Source: an uncultured Acidimicrobiia bacterium (GTDB lineage Bacteria > Actinomycetota > Acidimicrobiia > Spongiisociales > Spongiisociaceae). Taken from it: 64,000 bases of DNA. The notes under the pieces were generated by a model. That model worked only from the letters and a program-made list of their open reading frames with translations, ran no database searches and was not told where the DNA came from. The stretch spans positions 620,001 through 684,000 of the forward strand of contig OY282370.1 of assembly GCA_958295745.1 (NCBI GenBank), given 5' to 3'. Both the position numbers and the translations under genes were made by a program. Positions 46,890 through 50,274 of the stretch are shown here, piece by piece (positions within the stretch are counted from its first letter, which is position 1; every line of letters begins with the position of its first letter).

Positions 46890-47948
46890 ATGGCGCCGTC
46901 CCTGCGCCTCGTGGATCTGCGCATCCCGTTGCGCCGTCCTTTCGCCAACGCCGCCGGTGGAGCGGTCGCGGAGCGGCGCGTCGTGCTGGTGGGCGTCTCC
47001 GAGGACGGAACGACCGGCTGGGGGGAGGCGGCGCCCTACCCCGGGATCACCGCCGAGGACGCAGACGATGTATGGGAGGCCCTCCGCGAACGGGCTGCTC
47101 AGGTGCTCGGGGGGGACCTCTACGGACTCCCGCCCGCCGCGGCCGCCGCCGTCGATCAGGCCCGGGCCGACCTGTCCGCCCGGCTCGAAGGAACCCCCCT
47201 GTGGGCGTGGACGGGCGGCGACGGGCGTCCGGTCCGGGCCTGTGCGGCCATCGGCCTGGAAAACTCGCCGGACGAGACGGTCCGCCGGGTCGGTCGAGCC
47301 GTCGAAGCGGGGATGCGGGCGGTGAAGATCAAGATCGCACCGGGACGCGACCTCGAACACCTCCGGGCGGTGCGCGGCGCTTTCCCCGATCTGTCGGCGG
47401 CGGCCGACGCCAACGGCGCCTACGAGCGGGGCGACCCTTTCTTCGCGGCGGCCGACCGTCTCGATCTCGCCTACCTGGAACAGCCCCTAGCGGCCGGCGA
47501 CATGGACGGACACGCCGCCTTGAGCGGCCGGCTCCTGACCCCGGTATGCCTGGACGAATCAGCTTCCACGCCGGCCGGGGCCGCCGAGGCGATAGAGCGC
47601 CGGGCGGGCGGGATCGTGAGCCTCAAACCAGGGCTGCTGGGTGTGACCGGAGTGAAGCAGATGATCGCGAAGGCCGAGGCGAACGGCATGGCGGTCAAGA
47701 TCGGCGGCCTGGTGGAAACCTCGGTGGGGCGCGCCCACGCCCTAGCCCTGGCCGCCCGTCCGTCGGCCAGGTTCACCGATCTGACCCCTCCCCGCCTGAT
47801 GCTGACCGCCGACGCGTCCCGCCATCCCTGGGAACTAGCGGACGGTTTCCTGGCCCCGCCGGAAGGCCCCGGCCTGGGCATCGACATCGACCCCGCCGAC
47901 GCCGAAACCGCCGGCTGCGTAACCCGCCGATTGCTCCTCACGGCATAG
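46890..47948 (+). CDS. menC: o-Succinylbenzoate synthase-like enolase-superfamily enzyme
   Basis: A 352-residue enolase-superfamily barrel. It has the second-strand KIKIAPG lysines, metal ligands in ADANGAY (Asp), YLEQPL (Glu) and CLDESAS (Asp), and the opposite-face Lys in SLKPGLLG. This set fits o-succinylbenzoate synthase of menaquinone synthesis or a related N-acylamino-acid racemase. No other men genes are adjacent, so the assignment rests on family likeness; menaquinone need fits the succinate dehydrogenase type. Confidence 0.75.
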   Translation: MAPSLRLVDLRIPLRRPFANAAGGAVAERRVVLVGVSEDGTTGWGEAAPYPGITAEDADDVWEALRERAAQVLGGDLYGLPPAAAAAVDQARADLSARLEGTPLWAWTGGDGRPVRACAAIGLENSPDETVRRVGRAVEAGMRAVKIKIAPGRDLEHLRAVRGAFPDLSAAADANGAYERGDPFFAAADRLDLAYLEQPLAAGDMDGHAALSGRLLTPVCLDESASTPAGAAEAIERRAGGIVSLKPGLLGVTGVKQMIAKAEANGMAVKIGGLVETSVGRAHALALAARPSARFTDLTPPRLMLTADASRHPWELADGFLAPPEGPGLGIDIDPADAETAGCVTRRLLLTA

Positions 47949-47997
47949 GGGAACTGTCAGAGGGCCGGTTTCTCCGGTAACGCAGGAACAGGTCGGG

Positions 47998-48198
47998 TCA
48001 GCTGAGGTACTTGAGAACCGACTGCGGCACCGGCTTTCCCGCCCGGCGAACGTTCTCCCAGTATTCACGTTCCATCTCCGCCTGCAAATCGGCGAACTCG
48101 CCCGCGTCCAACCGGCGGGAGAGCTCTATCAGCTCTTCGTCCGGGGTTTCCCCAGGCCAACGCGGATACTCAATCGGATATTCAGGCCTCACCGTCAT
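47998..48198 (-). CDS. Small tandem paralog 1 (antitoxin-like candidate)
   Basis: A 66-residue acidic protein with the array consensus EYPRWPGETPDEELIELS, AGEFADLQ and YWENVRRAGKPVPQ, ending KYLS. GAGGGA lies just before AATATG. It is the last of four tandem copies that follow a BrnT-like toxin candidate. The conserved WPGETPDEEL and Arg-rich helix are not a domain I know. A role as a toxin-neutralising partner is inferred only from order and size. Confidence 0.6.
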   Translation of the reverse strand: MTVRPEYPIEYPRWPGETPDEELIELSRRLDAGEFADLQAEMEREYWENVRRAGKPVPQSVLKYLS

Positions 48199-48258
48199 AT
48201 TCCCTCGCGCTCAAGGAGATCTGGCACACACACCACCCCGTGATCCCGGCAGATTGGG

Positions 48259-48462
48259 TCAGCTGAGGTACTTGAGAGCCGACTGCGGTACCGGCTCCCC
48301 GGCCCGGCGAACGTTCTCCCAGTATCTACGACTCAACCTTGCTTGCACATCGGCGAATTCGCCTGCGACTATCCTGTCGGAGAGTTCCATCAGCTCCTCA
48401 TCAGGGGTTTCCCCAGGCCAACGCGGATACTCAACCGGATATTCTTCCTGTCTCTCAACCAT
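48259..48462 (-). CDS. Small tandem paralog 2 (antitoxin-like candidate)
   Basis: A 67-residue protein (MVERQEEYPVEYPRWPGE start) with ELMELSDRIVAGEFAD in the middle and VPQSALKYLS at the end. The start at 48462 aligns with the other copies and has AAGGA just upstream; the open frame extends eight codons further. Its 5' third and leader are nearly identical to copy 3, while its middle is nearly identical to copy 4, indicating exchange between copies. Confidence 0.6.
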   Translation of the reverse strand: MVERQEEYPVEYPRWPGETPDEELMELSDRIVAGEFADVQARLSRRYWENVRRAGEPVPQSALKYLS

Positions 48463-48537
48463 ATTCCTTGCCTTCAAGAAGGGCAACGGTGCGAAAACAC
48501 AATCATCCCACGCGTTACCGGCCTAAGGCAGGTCAGG

Positions 48538-48741
48538 TCAGCTGATGAGCTCGAGAGCCCACTGCGGCACCGGCTTCCCCGCCCGGCGAACGTTCTCCCA
48601 GTATTCACGTTCCATCTCCGCCTGGAAATCGGCGAACTCGCCCGCGACAAGCCTACGGGAGAGCTCTATCAGCTCCTCATCCGGAGTCTCCCCAGGCCAA
48701 CGCGGATACTCAACCGGATATTCTTCCTGTCGCTAAGCCAT
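48538..48741 (-). pseudogene. Small tandem paralog 3, nonsense codon at position 3
   Basis: The copy reads ATG GCT TAG CGA CAG GAA GAA; copy 2 has GAG at the position of the TAG. The rest of the frame is intact to the TGA at 48538-48540 and encodes the full conserved protein (EYPRWPGE, ELIELSRRLVAGEFAD, YWENVRRAGKPVPQ). No replacement start lies before the middle of the gene. Its 5' end matches copy 2 and its 3' half matches copy 1. The copy is probably silent but could serve as a recombination donor. Confidence 0.75.
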
Positions 48742-48817
48742 ACTTCCTTGCCTTCAAGGGATATAGATGCGGAAACACATCATCCGTATCCGTGTTTCCG
48801 GCCTACGGCATGTCAGG

Positions 48818-49018
48818 TCAGCTGAGGTACTTGTGAGCCCACGTCGGCAACGGCTCCCCCGCTCTACGGAGGTTCTCGCAGTGTCTACGTCGCGACCTTG
48901 CCTGCCAATCAGCGAATTCGCCTGCGACTATCCTGTCGGAGAGTTCCATCAGCTCTTCGTCCGGGGTTTCCCCAGGCCAACGCGGATAATCTATCGGGTA
49001 TTCGGGCCTCTCGGTCAT
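48818..49018 (-). CDS. Small tandem paralog 4 (antitoxin-like candidate)
   Basis: A 66-residue product (MTERPEYPIDYPRWPGE) with the ELMELSDRIVAGEFAD middle of copy 2 and the most diverged C-terminus (HCENLRRAGEPLPTWAHKYLS). ATG 49018 aligns with the other copies; a GTG three codons earlier is possible. It starts 24 bp after the stop of the BrnT-like gene, so it is its immediate partner if this is a toxin-antitoxin operon. Confidence 0.6.
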   Translation of the reverse strand: MTERPEYPIDYPRWPGETPDEELMELSDRIVAGEFADWQARSRRRHCENLRRAGEPLPTWAHKYLS

Positions 49019-49042
49019 ATTCTTCACGATAGCACATGCTCA

Positions 49043-49351
49043 TCAGTCAGGGAGCGGCCTGGCGTGAAACAGTTTCGCATTCTTGCGCTCGGGTCCCCAT
49101 TCGATTCCGATCTCGTACCACCGCCCTCCAGATCGCCCTGTGATCAGGAAGGTACGGCCCTGCGCCTCCGGAGTGCGGCCAGATGTGAGCTCTGCGGCCC
49201 CCTCGGTGTCGTTCATGGCTTCTATCGCGGTTTGCCAGGACACACCGTGTTTTCCGGCGGACTGCAGCACCATCACCCGCTCGCAGGGTATCCCGTCCGG
49301 CGGGTACTCCCATCTGCCGCCATGCAACAGGTGGCCTGAGAAGGAGTTCAC
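49043..49351 (-). CDS. BrnT-like (RelE-fold) toxin candidate
   Basis: Up to 102 residues. The core KHGVSWQTAIEAMND, then TFLITGRSGGRWYEIGI and a final HARPLPD, follows the pattern of BrnT/DUF4258 RNase toxins (HGVSxEEAxExxxD, GRSxxGR, SARxA). GTG 49351 has no clear ribosome-binding site and the first 25 residues are not typical, so the real start may lie inside (near VMVLQSAGKHG). In brnTA the toxin gene comes first, as here. Catalytic residues cannot be fixed by eye. Confidence 0.5.
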   Translation of the reverse strand: MNSFSGHLLHGGRWEYPPDGIPCERVMVLQSAGKHGVSWQTAIEAMNDTEGAAELTSGRTPEAQGRTFLITGRSGGRWYEIGIEWGPERKNAKLFHARPLPD

Positions 49352-49410
49352 GCCCGCCCGCCGGGTTTCGATCTCGCTGTTCGCGCCAGACCGCCCGCCC
49401 TATCCCGGGG

Positions 49411-50274
49411 TTACGCCTGCTGCGCCCGGCGCTCGGCGGCGAGGGCGGTGTTGCGCATCAGCATGGCCACCGTCATCGGACCCACTCCTCCCGGCACCGG
49501 GGTGATGGCGGAGGCGACCCCGGCGACGTCCTCGAACTTCACGTCCCCTACCAAGCCGCCCGACTCCGTGCGGTTGATGCCCACATCGATGACCACCGCT
49601 CCGGGCCGGACGTATTCGGAGGTGATCATCTCGGGCCTCCCGACCGCCGCCACCAGGATGTCGGCCCGCTTGGCGGCCTCGGCCAGACCCTTGGTCCGGG
49701 AGTGGGCGACGGTCACTGTGGCGTCGGCGCCCCGGGCCATCATCAGCAGGGCCAGGGAGCGCCCCACCAGGAAAGACCTCCCTACTATCACCACCTCGGC
49801 CCCCCGGACGGGGATGTCGTAGTAGTCGAGGAGGCGCATACACCCGCTGGGTGTGCAGGGCGCGAAGACCGGGCGGTCGAGCACGATCATCCCCAGGTTG
49901 GCGGGATGCAGGCCGTCCACGTCCTTCGACGGGTCGATCTCCATCGTGGCGGCCTGGTCGTCCAGACCGGGCGGCAGTGGGAGCTGGAGCAGTATGCCGT
50001 CGACATCGGGGGCCTCGTTGAGCCGCCCGATCAAACCGGCCACCCGCCCCTGGGTCGCGTCCGCCCCAAGTTCATGGTGAACCGAGCGGATACCCACCTC
50101 CGCCGCCCGGTTCCTCTTCGACCTCACGTAGGTGTGGGAAGCCGGGTCCTCCCCCACCAGCACGGTGGCCAGGGTGGCCTCTTTGCCGCGGGCCCCGAGC
50201 GCCTCCACCCGCTCGCGGGTCTCGTCGAGCACCGCGGCGGCCACGGCCTTGCCGTCGATAACAGTCGCCTTCAT
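49411..50274 (-). CDS. folD: Bifunctional methylenetetrahydrofolate dehydrogenase/cyclohydrolase
   Basis: A 287-residue FolD interconverting 5,10-methylene-, methenyl- and 10-formyl-THF. It has YVRSKRNRAAEVGI (the active-site Lys within YxxxK), QLPLPP, PCTPSG and the cofactor loop GRSFLVGRSLA. It lies 60 bp after purH on the same strand; 10-formyl-THF is the co-substrate of the PurH transformylase step, so the linkage is functional. Confidence 0.95.
   Translation of the reverse strand: MKATVIDGKAVAAAVLDETRERVEALGARGKEATLATVLVGEDPASHTYVRSKRNRAAEVGIRSVHHELGADATQGRVAGLIGRLNEAPDVDGILLQLPLPPGLDDQAATMEIDPSKDVDGLHPANLGMIVLDRPVFAPCTPSGCMRLLDYYDIPVRGAEVVIVGRSFLVGRSLALLMMARGADATVTVAHSRTKGLAEAAKRADILVAAVGRPEMITSEYVRPGAVVIDVGINRTESGGLVGDVKFEDVAGVASAITPVPGGVGPMTVAMLMRNTALAAERRAQQA

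Follow-up and report, generated by a model that had tools for sequence, protein, structure and literature searches.

A tandem array of one small gene family lies directly downstream of a toxin-like gene in the window, the whole 64,000-nucleotide stretch of DNA analyzed here. We lean towards reading this locus as a type II toxin–antitoxin module whose antitoxin gene was amplified by unequal crossing-over, with the extra copies kept for dosage. Toxin–antitoxin loci normally contain one antitoxin per toxin. Together with a single-copy pair in the same genome, the amplified array allows a natural comparison of whether additional antitoxin genes contribute to dosage, to specificity, or to neither.

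All genes of the array are on the minus strand. The first (49043–49351) is an open reading frame of 102 aa with a GTG start and resembles a divergent toxin of the BrnT/RelE superfamily; its stop codon is separated from the start of the next gene by 24 nt. Four genes of 201–204 bp follow in tandem on the same strand, namely c1 (48818–49018, 66 aa), c2 (48538–48741), c3 (48259–48462, 67 aa), and c4 (47998–48198, 66 aa). They are carried by a 216-nt direct repeat that occurs four times in register and was assigned to one family by the repeat finder. The repeat copies are 77–82% identical to the reference copy at the nucleotide level and spaced 261, 279, and 280 bp apart, a tandem array far beyond chance. 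The first-pass annotation had described four tandem paralogs at intervals of about 270 bp, and the layout, common strand, and spacing are as it stated; however, c2 is interrupted. This copy begins ATG GCT TAG and is otherwise intact to its stop codon, and the next ATG, GTG, or TTG is only the internal Met codon at 48615. Because the TAG occurs early in c2 and no usable start follows it, the array holds three intact small genes and one interrupted gene. Unless the TAG reflects a sequencing error or undergoes readthrough, c2, which is absent from the program-made list of open reading frames, is most likely dead. The protein identity to c4 is 86% for c2, 77% for c3, and 70% for c1. The ENVRRAG motif attributed to the whole family is present in c2–c4, but c1, the most diverged copy, reads ENLRRAG (RHCENLRRAG).

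The sequences between the genes were compared as well. Based on the alignment, the leaders before c2 and c3 (CTTGAAGGCAAGGAA) were repeated along with the genes, and the leaders of c3 and c4 are purine-rich and resemble ribosome-binding sites (AAGGCAAGGAAT-ATG and GCGAGGGAAT-ATG). In the array, no promoter-like site was found, and the one terminator-like site was not above chance. The gap between c1 and c2 (48742–48817, minus strand) contains GGAAACAC...GTGTTTCC, which may form a hairpin and has no conserved counterpart in the other gaps.

The 102-aa protein has a single homologue in its own genome, a 109-aa protein (G000:C1:149734-150063) that is 50% identical to it. K34-H35-G36-V37, R66, G75-G76-R77, and H96-A97 are invariant between the two. 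In Pfam, the 102-aa protein has no match to PF04365, and the 109-aa homologue reaches BrnT at a subthreshold 12.1 bits (E 0.26; cut-off 34.5). To compare profiles, PF04365 was used to gather BrnT sequences from the same phylum, which were extracted automatically. Aligned against them with hhalign, the profile of the two homologues gave a Prob of 89.8% and a score of 35.9 over 47 columns. None of 200 column shuffles scored as high (maximum score, 19.6), and the reversed profile gave 0.18%. The aligned part includes KHGVS, and K34-H35, invariant in both homologues, aligns with the KH motif of BrnT. A Lys-His pair is required for toxicity in BrnT (K16/H17) and RelS (K9/H10) (PMC13284704). BrnT also has a C-terminal Arg (R72); R98 is present in the 102-aa protein and missing in the 109-aa homologue, and the hhalign alignment stops short of this region. 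H96 is located in the last strand of the model, as is H64 of RelS, a likeness of strand position between residues that are not aligned.

The AF2 model of the 102-aa protein, built on two sequences (pLDDT 78, pTM 0.68), consists of helices followed by four long strands. Foldseek returned no match below E 0.16 for this model, and its ranking, headed by monellin, is uninformative. After re-alignment with VIA-align, the best chain is 7vd7, a BrnT homologue by sequence (Z 7.5, 79 residues, 2.7 Å). Two CdiA toxin entries come next, followed at rank 4 by BrnT 3u97 (Z 6.0 over 72 residues); RelE 1wmi has a Z of 5.1, and the ParE, RelE, and HigB toxins lie below 1wmi. BrnT leads only after this re-alignment and all Z values are below 8, a level that is weak by itself as evidence of the RelE/BrnT (BECR) fold; nevertheless, the sequence profile and the predicted fold agree on BrnT. 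Both results bear out, with moderate strength, the initial designation of this gene as BrnT-like.

The small family was described in the first-pass annotation as not recognized, and it indeed has no relative in any library searched (Pfam, NCBIfam, PADLOC, and PDB). In Pfam, NCBIfam, and PADLOC, neither the toxin-like protein nor the small protein obtained a real match; those to VbhA, SHOCT, and DUF1104 are subthreshold and were rejected. BrnA antitoxins have a ribbon-helix-helix DNA-binding fold. Neither Pfam nor NCBIfam gave a BrnA match, even at E values as high as 10, and the libraries, PDB, and fold search revealed neither a recognizable DNA-binding domain nor a known antitoxin relative, which speaks against the module reading. 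The AF2 model of c4, built on five sequences, comprises three helices (residues 21–31, 36–52, and 59–65) and no strand after a proline-rich N-terminus, with pLDDT 77 (below 60 at the N-terminus) and pTM only 0.46. This model has no fold match, a negative result that carries little weight for a helical protein this small. T-P-D-E is invariant at the start of the first predicted helix. It would suit covering a Lys-His site in the way that acidic residues of the first helix of RelI cover K9, H10, H64, and R69 of RelS (PMC13284704). Collectively, the small protein appears to represent a family without known relatives.

To assess whether the two genes belong together, their other homologues were located. 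The genome carries five small-family copies and two toxin-like genes, and apart from the array, homologues of either gene occur in it only as one adjacent pair, toxin first, 0.52 Mb away. The better start of the second-locus antitoxin (AGGAGG, ATG at L005:1456) yields a protein of 66 aa, the size of the array members. The gap from the toxin stop to the antitoxin is 26 nt from this start and 8–26 nt depending on the start chosen. Thus, type II adjacency, with both genes on the same strand, short spacing, and the toxin first, is found at 2/2 loci. Because the gene order is the same at both loci, there is good evidence that the 102-aa protein and the small family form a functional pair; this independent 1:1 pair therefore points to the small family as the partner of the toxin, as had been proposed. 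The second pair adjoins a phage-defence island with SspD-like, PDC-M33C/B/A, and PsyrT genes. The island spans L013:10488-18128 (G000:C1:150488-158128); its PDC-M33C, B, and A genes have about 42% G+C, and its PsyrT-like gene is a helicase-phosphoribosyltransferase.

These observations bear on the reading that no toxin–antitoxin system is present, with the 102-aa protein having a RelE-like fold and another function and the small proteins being unrelated accessory proteins. No protein of the locus matches a curated family, the fold evidence is moderate, and toxicity is only predicted, all of which would suit this reading. However, the BrnT profile match stands well above the shuffles, the toxin-first adjacency recurs at two loci, and there is sporadic insertion beside housekeeping and defence genes, as is typical of toxin–antitoxin modules. 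We therefore regard this reading as very improbable.

The genomic setting of the array was compared with that in relatives. The array-bearing stretch (47949–49410, 1462 bp) lies between a convergent epimerase gene, which ends at 47948, and folD, which ends at 49411. In 13/13 relatives checked, folD and the epimerase gene adjoin each other in convergent orientation without the array, and hence the array is an insertion. As it is located where two genes end, neither gene is broken. The folD–epimerase gap measures −4 to 220 bp in 11 relatives, 451 bp in one, and 1962 bp, with other content, in one. The junction is flanked in relatives by sucC on one side and by icd, plus mdh and hup where present, on the other. 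The G+C content of the array is 59.5%, compared with 66.9% for the window, and its third-position G+C is 0.62–0.74, compared with 0.84–0.90 for the neighbors; this lower G+C would fit a foreign origin. At the same junction, relative G002, of the same family, has about 2 kb of different sequence (L051:8616-10577), and relative G004 has the 451-bp gap without a clear gene (L050:9266-9716). The folD–epimerase junction may have served repeatedly as a landing site.

Relatives were also sought more widely. Single-protein searches covered the 198 nearest genomes, toxin-profile searches covered 395 genomes from the class and 236 from the phylum, and small-family-profile searches covered 396 genomes from the phylum and 138 from the order. 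Pattern scans covered GTDB genome contigs and viral contigs, and plasmids and phages were also searched. Regarding the occurrence of the layout elsewhere, a single 1:1 pair was found in the array's own genome, but none of the genome, viral, plasmid, and phage searches yielded a convincing relative of either protein outside it. The apparent restriction to this genome is provisional because pattern scans would miss distant relatives and most genomes were covered by sampling rather than in full. Several candidates were rejected: the G122 match (E 2.7e-4) proved to be GrpE-like and neighbors a DnaJ-like protein, the G176 match (E 9.4e-4) lies in a locus without such a gene pair, the plasmid matches are TraI, and the other weak matches lie in long unrelated frames or in frames with stops. 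An exact-phrase literature search for tandem antitoxin arrays found none. That one genome in all those searched carries the family, leaving no broad co-occurrence of the two genes, counts against the amplified-module reading.

To reveal how the copies have evolved, we compared them with each other. The dN/dS is 0.23–0.46 across all six copy pairs (0.34 for c3 vs c4), indicating that the copies, including c2 until recently, have evolved under protein constraint for most of their history. This constraint is relevant to a neutral explanation, in which an antitoxin gene of a normal two-gene module was duplicated by chance and is decaying, the extra copies being without a role. Such an explanation accords with the nonsense codon in c2, with the absence of the array from all 13 relatives, and with the other locus managing with one antitoxin. 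However, c3 and c4 are intact, have kept their ribosome-binding-site-like leaders, and show the low dN/dS given above, and we consider purely neutral duplication quite unlikely.

Among 18 informative sites, 14 pair c1 with c3 and c2 with c4; of the remainder, three sites close to the 5′ end support a c1–c4 grouping, and a single site close to the 3′ end supports c1–c2. These sites are arranged in blocks, with three runs, fewer than in shuffled order (permutation p 0.0006), although the test is based on few sites (n = 18). Since the leaders were repeated along with the genes and the c1/c3 and c2/c4 groupings occur in blocks, the pattern would fit a two-gene unit having been duplicated, with later exchange (conversion) between copies. 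Collectively, mosaic, partly homogenized copies under purifying selection would speak for redundancy or dosage no less than for diversification.

The main rival is a cross-neutralizing bank, that is, a real toxin–antitoxin system in which divergence has given the additional copies other toxins as binding partners. These would be the homologous toxin of the second locus or toxins of incoming plasmids or phages (anti-addiction). The copy beside the toxin, c1, is the most diverged, which lends a specificity bank some plausibility; c2–c4 keep the YWENVRRAGxPVP stretch of the second-locus antitoxin, from which c1 differs. Moreover, the genome encodes a further member of the toxin family, and anti-addiction by chromosomal antitoxins has precedent (PMC7354431). 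In contrast, the copies are mosaic in blocks, selection on them is purifying rather than diversifying, and c2 is interrupted; in addition, such a toxin turned up on none of the plasmids, phages, or viral contigs searched. On balance, a bank of this kind seems rather unlikely. A more elaborate proposal, which we rate as quite unlikely, is that a BrnT-superfamily toxin and a new antitoxin family make up a recombining tandem bank that generates variants against several toxins, including incoming ones; its variants would arise by unequal crossing-over and gene conversion at the chromosomal locus. Because the copies are under purifying constraint and have exchanged sequence, we prefer dosage combined with turnover to a specificity bank. 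The loss of c2 counts against dosage, as it points to fewer than four doses being sufficient.

According to the preferred reading of an antitoxin amplified for dosage, the first gene would encode an RNase-type toxin, a divergent member of the RelE/BrnT superfamily, with K34-H35 as its likely active site, and the small helical protein would be its cognate antitoxin, with an acidic helix laid over K34-H35. The antitoxin gene alone would have been amplified in tandem within a module that sits inserted between folD and the epimerase gene. The additional copies would most likely raise and buffer the supply of antitoxin for the same toxin, with turnover through gene conversion and through decay, which has already affected c2.

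Among known systems, BrnT/BrnA of Brucella abortus (PF04365; 3u97, homologue 7vd7) likewise has the toxin first and a small antitoxin directly downstream. The toxin profile, the probable fold, and the KHGVS(F/W) motif are common to BrnT and the array's toxin-like protein. However, the latter falls below the Pfam cut-off and has an extra N-terminal stretch, and the small protein matches no BrnA model, is predicted to contain helices only, and is encoded by three intact genes rather than one. By its features, the array also resembles RelS-RelI of Mycobacterium tuberculosis (Rv2663-Rv2664), with a BrnT-like toxin first, a Lys-His active-site pair, and in RelI an unusual three-helix antitoxin without known relatives, like the model of the small family (PMC13284704). 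RelS-RelI differs in having a single antitoxin, and RelI is partly similar to the HTH region of ClpC2. SpoIISABC of Bacillus (PMC4526809, PMC4926146), like the array, has more than one antitoxin gene per toxin in a locus, but its toxin is membrane-bound and its two antitoxins do not form a four-copy tandem array. The toxSAS modules differ from the array in that their toxins are alarmone synthetases. Their antitoxins are not known to form a tandem array of one family. Like the array, some toxSAS modules have more than one antitoxin per toxin (PMC11782079, PMC7354431).
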